Assembly (NCBI GenBank): GCA_937922675.1
Contig: CALAJN010000001.1
Span: 62,001 to 126,000 of the forward strand
Origin: an uncultured Granulosicoccaceae bacterium
Lineage (GTDB): Bacteria; Pseudomonadota; Gammaproteobacteria; Granulosicoccales; Granulosicoccaceae
DNA length: 64,000 bases
Direction: 5' to 3'
The notes below the pieces were generated by a model. That model saw only the letters and a list, made by a program, of their open reading frames with translations. It did no database searches and was not told where the DNA came from. Each line of letters starts with the position of its first letter. Positions within the stretch are counted from its first letter, which is position 1. Shown piece after piece: positions 26,421-32,203 of this stretch. Both the position numbers and the translations under genes were made by a program.

Positions 26421-26903
26421 ATGCCGTCTTTTGATGTGGTATCCGAAGTCGATTCGCACGAACTCGCCAATGCTGTTGATCAGGCAAGCCGAGAGATCGG
26501 CAACCGTTTTGACTTCAAGGGCACCTCTGCCAAGGTGGAGCTATCGGACACGCGTGTGATGCTGCATGCGGACAGTGACTTTCAGGTGCAACAGATGCAC
26601 CCGGTGCTCTACCAGAAGCTGGTGTCCAGAGGTATTGATATCGAATGCCTTGATGCCAAGCCGGTTGAGAACAGCGGCAAAGGCGTGCGTCAGGCGCTCG
26701 ATGTGCGCCAGGGCATCGACAAGGAGATCGCCAAAAGAGCCACGACCACCATCAAGCAGTCCAAGTTAAAGGTACAAGCGCAGATTCAGGGCGAGCAATT
26801 GCGTGTGACTGGCAAGAAACGTGATGATCTGCAAGCTGCCATGAAGTTGCTCAAGGATGCTGAGCTGGGCATCCCGCTACAATTTCAGAATTTCAGGGAT
26901 TAG
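26421..26903 (+). CDS. yajQ: YajQ family nucleotide-binding protein
   Basis: A 160-residue protein of the YajQ/UPF0234 family: two RNP-like alpha/beta domains that bind nucleotides. MPSFDVVSEVDSHELANAVDQ, FDFKGTSAKVEL and the C-terminal GKKRDDLQAAM segment are typical. Orthologues in Xanthomonas and Pseudomonas bind cyclic di-GMP and affect virulence gene expression; whether this one does cannot be told. A GGAGGA ribosome site sits about 10 bases before the start. Confidence 0.94.
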   Translation: MPSFDVVSEVDSHELANAVDQASREIGNRFDFKGTSAKVELSDTRVMLHADSDFQVQQMHPVLYQKLVSRGIDIECLDAKPVENSGKGVRQALDVRQGIDKEIAKRATTTIKQSKLKVQAQIQGEQLRVTGKKRDDLQAAMKLLKDAELGIPLQFQNFRD

Positions 26904-27186: not shown

Positions 27187-27963
27187 CTACTTTGGGGCCA
27201 GGTAGCGATCCCAACGCGTGTTTGGCGCCCTGACAGGATCCGGGTTTACACCAAAGGTGTTTGCCAGGGGCGGCGCGCCAACAGGACGTTTGACCACGAC
27301 ACGAACCGATGCAGCCAGAAGTGCTGCGTCCAACAGGCCCTCGTCATCACCTGGTGGTACCAGCGCATGCAGCGACTCGATGCCCTTGCGGGAGCGGGCG
27401 CGTCGACGTTGAGCGGGGTACATCGGATCGAGATAGACCAACTGTGGGCGCGGGACTGAGGCGCCACCTGAGCCGTGTCTCAGCCAGGCTCTCGCATCCG
27501 TTCGAATCAGGTGCATACGCTGTGCAAGCACTTGCACGCGCGAATCCCTGCACGCCCGAGCGCGCGCCAGGGCATCGGCCAACAAGGCGTGCACGATGGG
27601 GTTTTGCTCTAGCAAGGTCACATCAGCACCCAATGCTGCTGCCTGCCAGGCATCCACGCCCAGCCCTGCTGTGGCATCCACAAGCGTCACCTGCCGCCCG
27701 GTCGCTTGCAGCCGAGCGATACCGAGCGCCCTGGCAAGGGGTTGACTTGCCAATGAGGCCTCGCGAGCACGTGCTGCGCTGCGTCCCTGCACAAACTCTG
27801 CGTTGATCCTGACGCCATCATCGCGACGCAAAGCGAGCCCGGCAGCATCGCGAAACAATAGCCATGCGTGTGTGTCGTCACTGCTGGCAGGCAGCTCGGG
27901 CAACCCCAGTTCGTCACCAAGTTCACGACTCTGCACGATGATTGTCGGCACGGGGCTTGTCAC
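27187..27963 (-). CDS. rsmJ: 16S rRNA (guanine1516-N2)-methyltransferase
   Basis: A 258-residue methyltransferase of the RsmJ family, which methylates G1516 of 16S rRNA. LVDATAGLGVDAWQAA is the S-adenosylmethionine motif, VTLLEQNPIVHALLADAL holds motif II, and LVYLDPMYPAQRR is the DPMYP catalytic motif. GIESLHALVP and VVVKRPVGAPPLA follow. It is convergent with the small membrane gene before it and divergent from the Rieske-like gene: the two start codons are only 14 bases apart, so their promoters must lie inside the coding sequences. Confidence 0.93.
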   Translation of the reverse strand: MTSPVPTIIVQSRELGDELGLPELPASSDDTHAWLLFRDAAGLALRRDDGVRINAEFVQGRSAARAREASLASQPLARALGIARLQATGRQVTLVDATAGLGVDAWQAAALGADVTLLEQNPIVHALLADALARARACRDSRVQVLAQRMHLIRTDARAWLRHGSGGASVPRPQLVYLDPMYPAQRRRARSRKGIESLHALVPPGDDEGLLDAALLAASVRVVVKRPVGAPPLANTFGVNPDPVRAPNTRWDRYLAPK

Positions 27964-27977
27964 GATATGGTGCTGCC

Positions 27978-28583
27978 ATGAATTCGATCAATGAATCCAC
28001 AGTTAATCAGACGCGCCGCCTGCGTTTGCGCGTGGTGGTCAAAGCCATGTTGAGCCTGGCGGTGTGTGCGGTTCTGTTTGTGTTGTTCGCGTTTTTCTTC
28101 TCTGGCGAGGACGAGCGCCCGAGAGTGCCAGGTCTGAAAGTGGATGTCAGCACCTTGAACCCCGGGCAAACGCGGCGTCTCTTGTGGGAGGGGCGGCCGG
28201 TATTGATTCAGCGGCGAAGCACCGAGATGATCGCCGCTCTGCAATCCGCTGAGGTAACCGCTACGCAGCGCTTGCGCGATCCCGATTCGCTCGATTCCGA
28301 GCAACCAACGGCCATGACCAACTCGCTGCGCTCGCGCGAGCCCGAATGGTTTGTTGCCATTGCGCTGGGTACCGATCAGGGGTGCCCTGTCGCCGAGGCC
28401 AGCATCGAGACCGATCAGCGTGTTGATCCAGCAGCGCCGGGCTTTGTCGATGAGTGTCGAGCCTCTCTTTACGACGGGGCTGGAAGGGTCCTGCGCGACC
28501 AGTACGCGGACCGAAATCTGGCGGTGCCTCGCTACGTTCTCGAGCGCACCGGCGCCGGGCTGTCGGTTGTACTGGGGCGCTGA
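27978..28583 (+). CDS. Rieske-like membrane protein that has lost all four cluster ligands
   Basis: A 201-residue protein with one N-terminal membrane helix (about 20-41) and a domain that aligns along its whole length with the Rieske subunit of the cytochrome bc1 complex (PetA): VDVSTLNPGQTRRLLWEGRP, LIQRRSTEMIAAL, LRDPDS, SREPEWFVAI and YDGAGRVL. In true Rieske proteins CTHLGC and CPCH hold the [2Fe-2S] cluster. Here they read GTDQGC (131-136) and DECR (158-161), so the ligand Cys and His in each are Gly, Asp, Asp and Arg. The two remaining cysteines, C136 and C160, are the disulfide pair of the fold and are kept. It probably cannot bind a cluster. No twin-arginine signal is seen. Role unknown. 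Confidence 0.75.
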   Translation: MNSINESTVNQTRRLRLRVVVKAMLSLAVCAVLFVLFAFFFSGEDERPRVPGLKVDVSTLNPGQTRRLLWEGRPVLIQRRSTEMIAALQSAEVTATQRLRDPDSLDSEQPTAMTNSLRSREPEWFVAIALGTDQGCPVAEASIETDQRVDPAAPGFVDECRASLYDGAGRVLRDQYADRNLAVPRYVLERTGAGLSVVLGR

Positions 28584-28652: not shown

Positions 28653-28889
28653 TCAGTAATGCGGCGGCAACTCGTGAACAATGGCGCCTCCCTCGGCGCT
28701 GTCTGAGTCGTCAGGTGCGTCAGGTTTGCTGGCATCCAGGCGAGCCAATGCCGCCTCGAGCGCCTTGGTCAGTTGACTGATTTCTGCACCTTGGCTGATT
28801 ACGACGGCATCGAGCTCGCTTTGCGCCAGTTCAAACTCCATGATCTTGAGTTCCAGAGCCTCGAGTCGGCCATCGCGATCATCTGGCAT
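28653..28889 (-). CDS. slyX: SlyX-family small coiled-coil protein
   Basis: A 78-residue protein with a heptad-patterned helix (RLEALELKIMEFELAQSEL then VVISQGAEISQLTKAL) and the C-terminal PPHY found in SlyX proteins. The start ATG 28889 gives the normal SlyX length; ATG 28925 would add 12 residues. The function of SlyX is not known. It is divergent from gatC. Confidence 0.88.
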   Translation of the reverse strand: MPDDRDGRLEALELKIMEFELAQSELDAVVISQGAEISQLTKALEAALARLDASKPDAPDDSDSAEGGAIVHELPPHY

Positions 28890-28998: not shown

Positions 28999-29286
28999 GT
29001 GTCACTCGACAAGGAAGAAGTGCGGACCATCGCCCATCTGGCGCGTTTGTCCGTTGAAGAATCGCGGCTCGAGCCGATCGCCGCCGAGCTCTCGCGTGTG
29101 CTCGAATTCGTCGATCGGCTGAACAGTGTCGATACCCGTGACATAGAGCCGATGTCCAACCCAGTATCCAGCGAGCTGGTGTTACGAGAGGACGTCATTA
29201 CGGAGACCGACGAGCGTGAGCAATTGCAAAAGCCCGCGCCAGCGGTTCACGAGGGGTATTTCACCGTGCCGAGGGTCATCGAATGA
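28999..29286 (+). CDS. gatC: Asp-tRNA(Asn)/Glu-tRNA(Gln) amidotransferase subunit C
   Basis: A 95-residue GatC, the small scaffold subunit of the GatCAB amidotransferase. The pattern [22 protein letters not shown] and [16 protein letters not shown] is typical, as is the [15 protein letters not shown] ending. It starts with GTG and its stop overlaps the gatA start (ATGA). Together the three genes form one operon that makes Gln-tRNA(Gln) and/or Asn-tRNA(Asn) from misacylated tRNA. Confidence 0.95.
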
Positions 29287-30767
29287 GTGTTGTCGGCAAC
29301 CGCGAATTGCACCAGCTCACATTGACCGAGCAATCCGCGGCTCTTTCAGCGGGGGAAATCTCAAGTGTCGAGCTGACCCGACACTGTCTTGCGCGCATAG
29401 ATGCGCACGACAAGACTCTGAACAGTGTCATCAGTGTCGGTGCTGGTGCGGCGCTAGAGGCGGCGGCCGTGGCAGATGTTTCTCGCACCGAGGGTGATTC
29501 GGGGCCACTGCTTGGTGTGCCACTGGTTCACAAGGATATCTTCTGTACTCGTGCGCTACCCACAACCTGCGGCTCGCGCATGCTTGAGTCGTATACCTCA
29601 CCCTTCGACGCCACCGTCGTCGAACGGCTGAACGCTGCGGGTATGGTGACGCTCGGTAAGGCGAACATGGATGAATTCGCCATGGGCTCATCCAACGAAA
29701 ACAGCTTCTTCGGGGGCGTGGACAACCCTTGGCGAGCAGGCACCGTGCCCGGCGGTTCTTCAGGGGGCAGCGCGGCTCTGGTAGCCGCACGCCTGGCAAG
29801 TGTCGCGACAGCCACTGATACAGGAGGCTCGATTCGTCAGCCAGCGGCCTTTTGTGGCGTAACAGGCATCAAGCCAACCTACGGCCGCGTCTCTCGCTAC
29901 GGCATGATTGCCTTTGCCTCCAGTCTTGATCAGGGTGGTGTCATTGCCACCACTGCCGAGGACTGCGCGCAAGTCTTGCAAGCGATGTCTGGTGCGGATC
30001 CGCGAGATGCAACCTGCAGTGCTGACCCTGTACCTGACTGGCTCGCTGCGATGCGCTCGGTCAAGGACCTGAAGGGCTTGCGGGTGGGCGTGCCCGAGGA
30101 GTTTTTTGCAGATGGTCTGGATGAGGCGGTTGCTATCGTTGTAAGGGACGGACTTGCAGAGTTGGAGTCCCTCGGGGCTACACTGGTGTCGATTTCGCTG
30201 CCCAAGCAGTCACTTGGTATCTCGGCCTACTACGTCGTTGCGCCTGCAGAGGCCTCAAGCAACCTGTCGCGCTTTGACGGCGTGCGCTTTGGCCATCGCT
30301 GTGAAGATCCGCAGGACCTGACCGATCTATACCAGCGCTCGCGAGCAGAAGGCTTTGGTAGCGAGGTTCAGCGACGTATTCTCATTGGCGCCTATGTGCT
30401 CTCGGCAGGTTTTTACGATGCCTATTACAAAAAGGCACAGCAAGTCCGGCAGGTGATCGCGGATGAATTTGATGAGGCCTTTGCCTCGGTGGATGTCATC
30501 GCCGGGCCTACGACACCCACAGTTGCCTTTAACCGCGGGGCCAAGAGTGATGATCCTGTGGCGATGTACCTGAATGATCTCTATACCGTGTCGGCCAATC
30601 TGTGTGGGCTGCCTGCACTGTCGATGCCCTGCGGATTCGCTGATGGAATGCCTGTAGGTCTGCAACTGATCGCTCGTGCATTTGATGAAGAGCGCCTCCT
30701 CAACACAGCTCATGCCTTTCAACAAGCGACAGGGTGGCACGCTGTCATACCGGAGGCCACCTCATGA
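29283..30767 (+). CDS. gatA: Asp-tRNA(Asn)/Glu-tRNA(Gln) amidotransferase subunit A
   Basis: A 494-residue amidase-signature enzyme that releases ammonia from glutamine for the transamidation. The catalytic triad is visible: lysine in [12 protein letters not shown], cis-serine in [15 protein letters not shown], and the nucleophile in [38 protein letters not shown] (broken here as [13 protein letters not shown] and AFASSLDQ) is the characteristic block after the active site. It overlaps gatC and gatB by four bases at both ends, which suggests equal expression of the subunits. Confidence 0.97.
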
Positions 30768-32203
30768 GTGCTGCCTGGGAATGTGTCATCGGTCTTGAGA
30801 TTCACACGCGGCTGCAAACGCAGTCAAAATTGTTCTCGGGGGCAGCCAATGCGTTTGGTGCAGAGCCCAATAGTCAGGCTTGTGCCGTTGATCTGGGCCT
30901 GCCTGGTGTGCTGCCGGTGCCCAACCGTGAGGCAGTTGCCCATGCTGTGCGTCTGGCAACAGCGATAGGGGCAGACTTTGCTCGACGCTCGGTGTTTGCA
31001 CGCAAGAACTATTTTTATCCTGATCTTCCCAAGGGCTACCAGATCTCACAAATGGCGCTACCGGTCGTTGGCCCGGGTGTTGTCGAGTGCGCGCTGAACG
31101 ATGGCACAACGGTGCAGGTTGGTGTCACTCGCGCGCACCTGGAAGAAGACGCAGGGAAGTCGGTGCACGACTTGCTCGATGGCTTTACCGCGATTGATCT
31201 GAATCGGGCCGGGACGCCTTTGCTTGAGATTGTCTCTGAGCCTGACATGCGCTCGGCGGCTCAAGCGGTGGCCTATGCGCGTCACATGCATGCGCTGGTT
31301 CGCTGGATCGGCGTGTGCGACGGCAATATGCAAGAGGGTTCGTTTCGATGTGATGCCAATGTTTCGATCCGCCCTGCAGGTAGCGAGACACTCGGCACCC
31401 GCACCGAGGTCAAGAACCTCAACTCGTTTCGATTTCTGGAACGCGCCATCGAGTTCGAGTACACCCGGCAGGTCGAGCTGCTCGAAGACGGCGGTACGGT
31501 GACACAGGAGACGCGGCTCTACGACCCCGAAGCCGATGAGACGCGCGCCATGCGCTCAAAGGAAGAAGCCAATGACTACCGCTACTTCCCGGACCCGGAC
31601 CTGCCTCCCGTGGTGGTTGATGAGCGTTTTGTTACAGCAGTTGTCGAGGCGATGCCAGAGTTGCAACACGTTCGCCGAGCACGGTTTGTCAACAGTCTGG
31701 GTGTGGCGCCAGGCGACGCTGCGATTCTGACCAACGATCGCGCAACCGCCGACTGGTTTGAAGCGGCCGTGGCCGCGGGTGCGCCAGCGCGACTTGCCTC
31801 TACCTGGCTCATCGGAGAGGTGTTCGGTCGACTCAAACGAGATGAGTTGAATCTTGAGCACATTCCGCTCACACCCGAGCGCTTTGCCGGGCTCTTGCTG
31901 CGCATTGAGGATGACACCATCTCCGGGAAGATCGCCAAGCGCGTGTTCGAGGCCTTATGGGAGAGTGGCGATACAGCCGATGAGATCATCGAGCGCGAAG
32001 GGCTGAAGCAGATCACTGACAGCGGTGCGATCGATTCGCTGGTCGATGAGGTCATCGCGGCTAACCCCTCTCAGGTGGCTGAATACCGTGCAGGCAAGAC
32101 AAAGTTGATGGGCTTTCTGGTTGGTGCCGCCATGAAGGTCTCTGCTGGCAAGGCCAACCCGGCCCAGCTAAACGCCGCCTTGAAGGCAAAACTGGACATT
32201 TGA
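30764..32203 (+). CDS. gatB: Asp-tRNA(Asn)/Glu-tRNA(Gln) amidotransferase subunit B
   Basis: A 479-residue GatB, which binds misacylated tRNA and phosphorylates its side chain before amide transfer. [17 protein letters not shown] and the cradle motifs [29 protein letters not shown] and [15 protein letters not shown] are intact; the C-terminal YqeY-like domain covers about 330-479. ATG 30764 overlaps the gatA stop and has GGAGG upstream. The window also has a tRNA-Gln gene (45.9 kb) but no gltX, glnS, aspS or asnS, so which tRNA is the substrate cannot be decided here. Confidence 0.97.

Follow-up and report, generated by a model that had tools for sequence, protein, structure and literature searches.

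RieX, a Rieske-fold paralogue of the cytochrome bc1 iron-sulfur subunit that lacks the cluster ligands and recurs across gammaproteobacterial families

The window analyzed here is a 64,000-nucleotide stretch of DNA from an uncultured Granulosicoccaceae bacterium. It harbors an open reading frame (27978-28580 plus stop, ATG start) encoding a PetA-like protein of 201 residues, referred to as RieX. The gene, its motifs and its neighbors are:

27978..28583, + strand: RieX, clusterless Rieske-fold paralogue, 201 aa (TIGR01416 and PDB sequence matches, AlphaFold model, Foldseek)
28017..28103, + strand: N-terminal membrane anchor, residues 14-42, with R14, R18 and K22, modelled as one helix over residues 3-42 (AlphaFold model, alignment)
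28368..28385, + strand: GTDQGC, counterpart of CTHLGC; G131 and D133 stand where PetA has the ligand Cys and His, disulfide C136 retained (alignment)
28449..28460, + strand: DECR, counterpart of CPCH; D158 and R161 stand where PetA has the ligand Cys and His, disulfide C160 retained (alignment)
28503..28511, + strand: Y176-A177-D178, counterpart of the PAP proline loop of PetA, both prolines gone (alignment)
26421..26903, + strand: yajQ (DUF520), conserved neighbor of RieX and rsmJ (neighborhood comparison)
27187..27963, - strand: rsmJ (SAM_MT), divergent neighbor of RieX, with linkage kept across families
28653..28868, - strand: slyX-like coiled-coil gene, downstream neighbor of RieX in Granulosicoccaceae (neighborhood comparison)
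28999..32203, + strand: putative gatC-gatA-gatB, downstream neighbors of RieX in its own genus

The called starts of the divergent genes rsmJ and RieX (27963 and 27978) are just 14 bp apart, which implies either that their promoters lie inside the neighboring genes or that one start was called too long. Scans for promoters and terminators found nothing.

Residues 12-189 of RieX matched TIGR01416, the model of the bc1 iron-sulfur subunit (2e-24, 86 bits), a score just short of the curated equivalog cut-off of 97 bits, and the same model was matched by all 20 diverse RieX members at E ≤ 0.001. The best sequence match among solved structures was the Rieske subunit of the Pseudomonas aeruginosa bc1 complex (8smr_C, 7e-19, residues 27-189), so that the end-to-end alignment with PetA described in the original prediction was nearly reproduced by both searches. 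The Pfam Rieske model PF00355 matched neither the window protein nor 19 diverse members, and RieX is not among the four PF00355 genes of the source genome. As it is missed by this model, RieX is probably counted as a hypothetical protein or as PetA. A true petA was found elsewhere in the genome (G000:C9, ~286991); it carries CTHLGC and CPCH and lies directly upstream of the cytochrome b gene.

AlphaFold models, both built from clusterless sequences only, were obtained for the window protein (pLDDT 89, pTM 0.74) and for a relative from Thioalkalivibrio sulfidiphilus (pLDDT 90). Both show a long N-terminal helix followed by a Rieske head, and in Foldseek searches the best PDB matches of both were Rieske subunits of bc1 complexes, including 8smr, 7yr9 and 1rie. 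The zinc-containing immature PetA of Thermochromatium tepidum (TtPetA, 7yr9) was matched with a TM score of 0.86 on the target (2.2 and 1.8 Å for the two models), and 1rie with TM scores of 0.82 and 0.80. By descent and predicted structure RieX is a Rieske-fold protein, and since the defining ligands are absent it stands outside the [2Fe-2S] Rieske proteins.

The pattern of loss was analyzed in an alignment of 71 RieX rows and 59 PetA rows. RieX rows were defined by the lack of the full ligand motif, so that every row must by construction have lost one ligand or more; that all four ligands and the prolines are gone and that the disulfide stays does not follow from this definition. Aligned with the PetA of its own genome (L004), the window protein has G131, D133, D158 and R161 in place of the ligands and retains C136 and C160, as had been proposed from the sequence. 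Ligand loss is common to the 71-sequence family and not a feature of one strain, and no orthologue in the clade was seen to have its ligands intact. G, D, D and R are the commonest residues at the former ligand positions, with two exceptions: L219 retains the second histidine (H161), and the atypical L226 retains both. Seven of the 31 columns held at ≥90% in the 59 PetA rows are lost in RieX, namely the four ligands and three prolines, one of which follows shortly after the first disulfide cysteine while the other two belong to the PAP loop. In known Rieske structures this loop covers the cluster.

One further sequence (L221, G402:C1:871700-873300) was considered as a RieX member and left out, as it groups with PetA of its family. 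This PetA relative carries CTF..C / CPCC, in which both histidine ligands are replaced (Phe, Cys) and extra cysteines occur.

Both disulfide cysteines are present in 71/71 RieX rows, the bond itself being deduced from homologous positions. Such an invariant pair could belong to a thiol-disulfide switch in which C136-C160 is redox-active and senses or transfers disulfides. However, this pair is the structural disulfide of every such Rieske fold and its invariance is expected without redox chemistry, which makes a switch quite unlikely. The former ligand positions could also hold another metal through new acidic residues, given that the ligand cysteine at position 158 has become Asp or Glu in nearly all rows, that the atypical L226 retains both histidines and that zinc can occupy the cluster site of TtPetA (PMC10492824). 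Most members, though, have no His or Cys at the four ligand positions, where the other residues are Gly and Arg, and we judge metal binding by the family to be very improbable. L226 itself (G131:C5:73100-74900) has a signal peptide and the motifs GPHYGC / DPCH, with the ligand cysteines gone and both histidines kept; a candidate mononuclear metal site is possible in this protein.

Several positions are conserved in RieX and not in PetA: K22 (98%), R18 (85%), D158 (82%) and G131. These positions indicate that RieX is under constraints of its own, which for K22 and R18 act outside the old cluster site and for D158 inside it. Positions 133 and 161 form an acidic/basic pair in 40 of the 71 rows (Fisher 3e-10 by plain count). 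When the pairing was counted on the tree, 2.7 independent pairs on average agreed in direction, with 0 opposed (p ~0.25), and a possible D133/R161 salt bridge is no more than a lead drawn from the alignment.

The anchor is unlike that of PetA in sequence apart from R14/L17. In a comparison uncorrected for relatedness, its best 19-mer has a mean Kyte-Doolittle value of 2.40 in RieX versus 1.84 in PetA, it contains 1.3 versus 3.1 glycines, and the RR pair before the anchor, present in the window protein, occurs in 62% of RieX versus 98% of PetA. PetA uses the Tat route, which is needed for its cluster. The composition of the RieX anchor fits a shift from the Tat route to an ordinary signal anchor.

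RieX shares the architecture of PetA (anchor, hinge and head) and retains the PetA base-domain residues in the alignment, as would suit an alternative Rieske subunit that takes the Rieske place in some bc1 complexes and thereby switches off or regulates them. Yet the docking patch has lost the proline and histidine of the cluster tip, and the proline loop, the flexible hinge sequence of PetA and its Gly/Pro-containing anchor are not kept either; nor are RieX and the pet genes co-located. Because the docking-tip residues are missing and the anchor differs, RieX would not bind bc1 as PetA does; replacement of PetA is made less likely by the lost tip and proline loop together with the retention of an intact PetA, and we regard it as unlikely.

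In a tree calculated without the motif columns, all 71 RieX rows lay on one side of a branch and the 59 PetA rows on the other, with modest internal support and three long branches. These data fit a single origin of RieX long before the present families, and the synteny with rsmJ agrees with one old origin. For close RieX pairs dN/dS was 0.06-0.24; judged by these ratios, RieX is under purifying selection.

Within the family Granulosicoccaceae, which here equals the whole sampled order (named members Granulosicoccus and Granulosicoccaceae), RieX was detected in 42 of 48 genomes (24 of the 28 good genomes), usually together with a separate PetA. The other 4 of the 28 good genomes have PetA without RieX, showing that RieX is dispensable. 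One genome (G001) contains two RieX copies (L027 and L047), 91% identical and located on two contigs, and another encodes a second, divergent and ligand-complete PetA (L058, G045:C45) in addition to a normal PetA and a clusterless gene.

In the class sample, clusterless relatives were detected in 24 genomes of at least 16 gammaproteobacterial families, a lower bound because the genomes read were those with multiple hits plus 30 low-scoring ones with a single hit. Beyond the family, the carriers that have names are species of Ectothiorhodospira and Thioalkalivibrio. PetA was found in 24/24 of these RieX genomes and its motif was read in 23; no RieX genome without PetA was seen among the 30 low-scoring single-hit genomes. 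As PetA is common in these lineages, this co-occurrence is weak evidence for a link between the two proteins. In the phylum sample the other classes gave mostly single matches, and the second matches that were read, a part of them all, were ordinary PetA. Plasmid records gave just weaker matches, the best of which is annotated as petA.

The patchy distribution, with absence from four good family genomes, could be taken as the mark of a petA duplicate that is decaying on its way out. This is contradicted by the age of the single clade and its spread over many families, by intact frames, by dN/dS far below 1, by conserved synteny and by the residues conserved in RieX alone, and decay is hardly credible. 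The original prediction, which named bc1 assembly, subunit replacement or a non-redox function as possible roles, had suggested selection for the fold without the cluster instead of decay, and this is supported by a ligand loss common to the orthologues, the kept disulfide, the low dN/dS and two predicted Rieske folds. Neither of the two outcomes that it gave as refuting, orthologues with all ligands or a predicted structure of another fold, was observed.

Among the loci read, RieX was never seen in a pet operon, its neighbors being rsmJ, yajQ, slyX and gatCAB. A cox/pet cluster, considered for some families, was dropped; by eye, the neighbors of L219 are lolB- and ispE-like and those of L220 resemble genes for a LysM protein and an aminotransferase. 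rsmJ adjoins RieX in 41 of the 42 family loci and also in Ectothiorhodospira, Thioalkalivibrio and several further families, often together with yajQ. It is divergent from RieX in the family of the window and mostly convergent elsewhere. In one genome yajQ and RieX are adjacent and co-directional with a gap of 24 bp (L116:9504-10564) and in another they overlap by 4 bp (L207:77-1104), an arrangement that suggests co-transcription in these two genomes. In family f52 (L208, L240, L201) RieX has changed position and follows a gene with weak similarity to those of sppA-like membrane peptidases, and no rsmJ was found within the short stretch read at these loci.

This neighborhood bears on the main rival to the reading favored below, namely that the Rieske fold was co-opted for work in the periplasm or envelope that has nothing to do with respiration, such as that of a scaffold or chaperone bound to the membrane. 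The linkage kept in different families to rsmJ, and in many cases to yajQ, the adjacent or overlapping yajQ genes, the position behind the sppA-like gene in one family and the loss of the PetA docking tip would all suit such an exaptation, in which the rsmJ/yajQ neighborhood is either irrelevant or a pointer to a new partner. On the other hand, the neighbors are unrelated housekeeping genes whose linkage may reflect mere vertical inheritance, and PetA accompanies RieX in every class-sample genome read. We consider this explanation possible, if doubtful.

Every cluster-holding residue of RieX is lost while the fold is kept, from which it follows that its job is other than electron transfer. We favor a role without redox chemistry in the respiratory membrane, either structural or in assembly, to which we assign a probability of roughly 40%. 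It is suggested by the descent from PetA, the retained base domain, the constant company of PetA and two parallels discussed below, mFDX-like and the Acidocella Rieske protein; it is weakened by the location of the gene beside unrelated genes, the loss of the docking tip and the dispensability of RieX. In this proposal RieX is viewed as an old paralogue of the bc1 Rieske protein whose fold was retained after electron transfer had ceased to be its task. Being cofactor-free, it would no longer need the Tat route, which serves folded proteins, and could be inserted as a Sec-type signal anchor, after which the head would fold in the periplasm around its disulfide, and the hole at the vacant iron site would be filled by local residues, in many members the D133/R161 pair. 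With less certainty, the anchored head may support the structure or assembly of a respiratory membrane complex in a non-redox capacity; the most probable candidate is bc1, or a supercomplex with bc1 in it, and the clusterless mFDX-like, which serves plant complex I, would be a comparable case. More tentatively than the general role, RieX may represent a subunit of bacterial bc1 complexes or bc1 supercomplexes, so far undescribed, which has an accessory or assembly function without redox chemistry and is conserved across many gammaproteobacterial families.

Bacterial cytochrome bc1 is regarded as a machine of three or four subunits, and its Rieske protein is defined by the cluster. By retaining the shape of this protein and discarding precisely the cluster apparatus, the old and selected RieX family offers a natural experiment in which the structural value of the Rieske fold can be told apart from its redox value, and its presence in culturable hosts, e.g. 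Ectothiorhodospira and Thioalkalivibrio, makes a clear test possible. No literature on the RieX family was found among open-licence papers, and no earlier description of a separate ancient clusterless paralogue family beside intact PetA was encountered; a Rieske iron-sulfur protein without ligands and with its disulfide kept is itself known from Acidocella.

The closest known system is PetA (TIGR01416), with which RieX shares the domain order, the long proteobacterial insertion D..S....QP.......R, the YD.AGR and N..P landmarks, the disulfide pair and the predicted structure. It differs from PetA in having no cluster ligands, no proline loop and a less Tat-like anchor, and in being encoded outside the pet operon beside an intact PetA. 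A Rieske-like fold without cluster residues is also known from NirD, the small subunit of NADH nitrite reductase, which is soluble and cytoplasmic and belongs to the Rieske_2 family, whereas RieX is of the membrane-anchored bc1 type. The immature TtPetA, among the best structural matches of RieX, has all ligands present and holds zinc chloride (PMC10492824), showing that the fold stands without [2Fe-2S].

In the 'deranged' Rieske iron-sulfur protein of Acidocella, three or four ligands are absent and the two disulfide cysteines are kept; it is the bc1 Rieske protein of that genome, and the cytochrome b of the same bc1 is damaged too (PMC10715153). Compared by its published description, it resembles RieX in ligand loss and kept disulfide, whereas RieX comes in addition to a PetA that is intact. 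The plant mitochondrial ferredoxin paralogue mFDX-like, which lacks a cluster, has been tested and serves the assembly of complex I and supercomplexes (PMC10069907). Both it and RieX are clusterless paralogues of electron carriers; fold and complex differ, and the role of RieX is proposed by analogy. If the bc1 accessory reading is true, the complex would have recruited a paralogue of its own electron carrier as a structural component.
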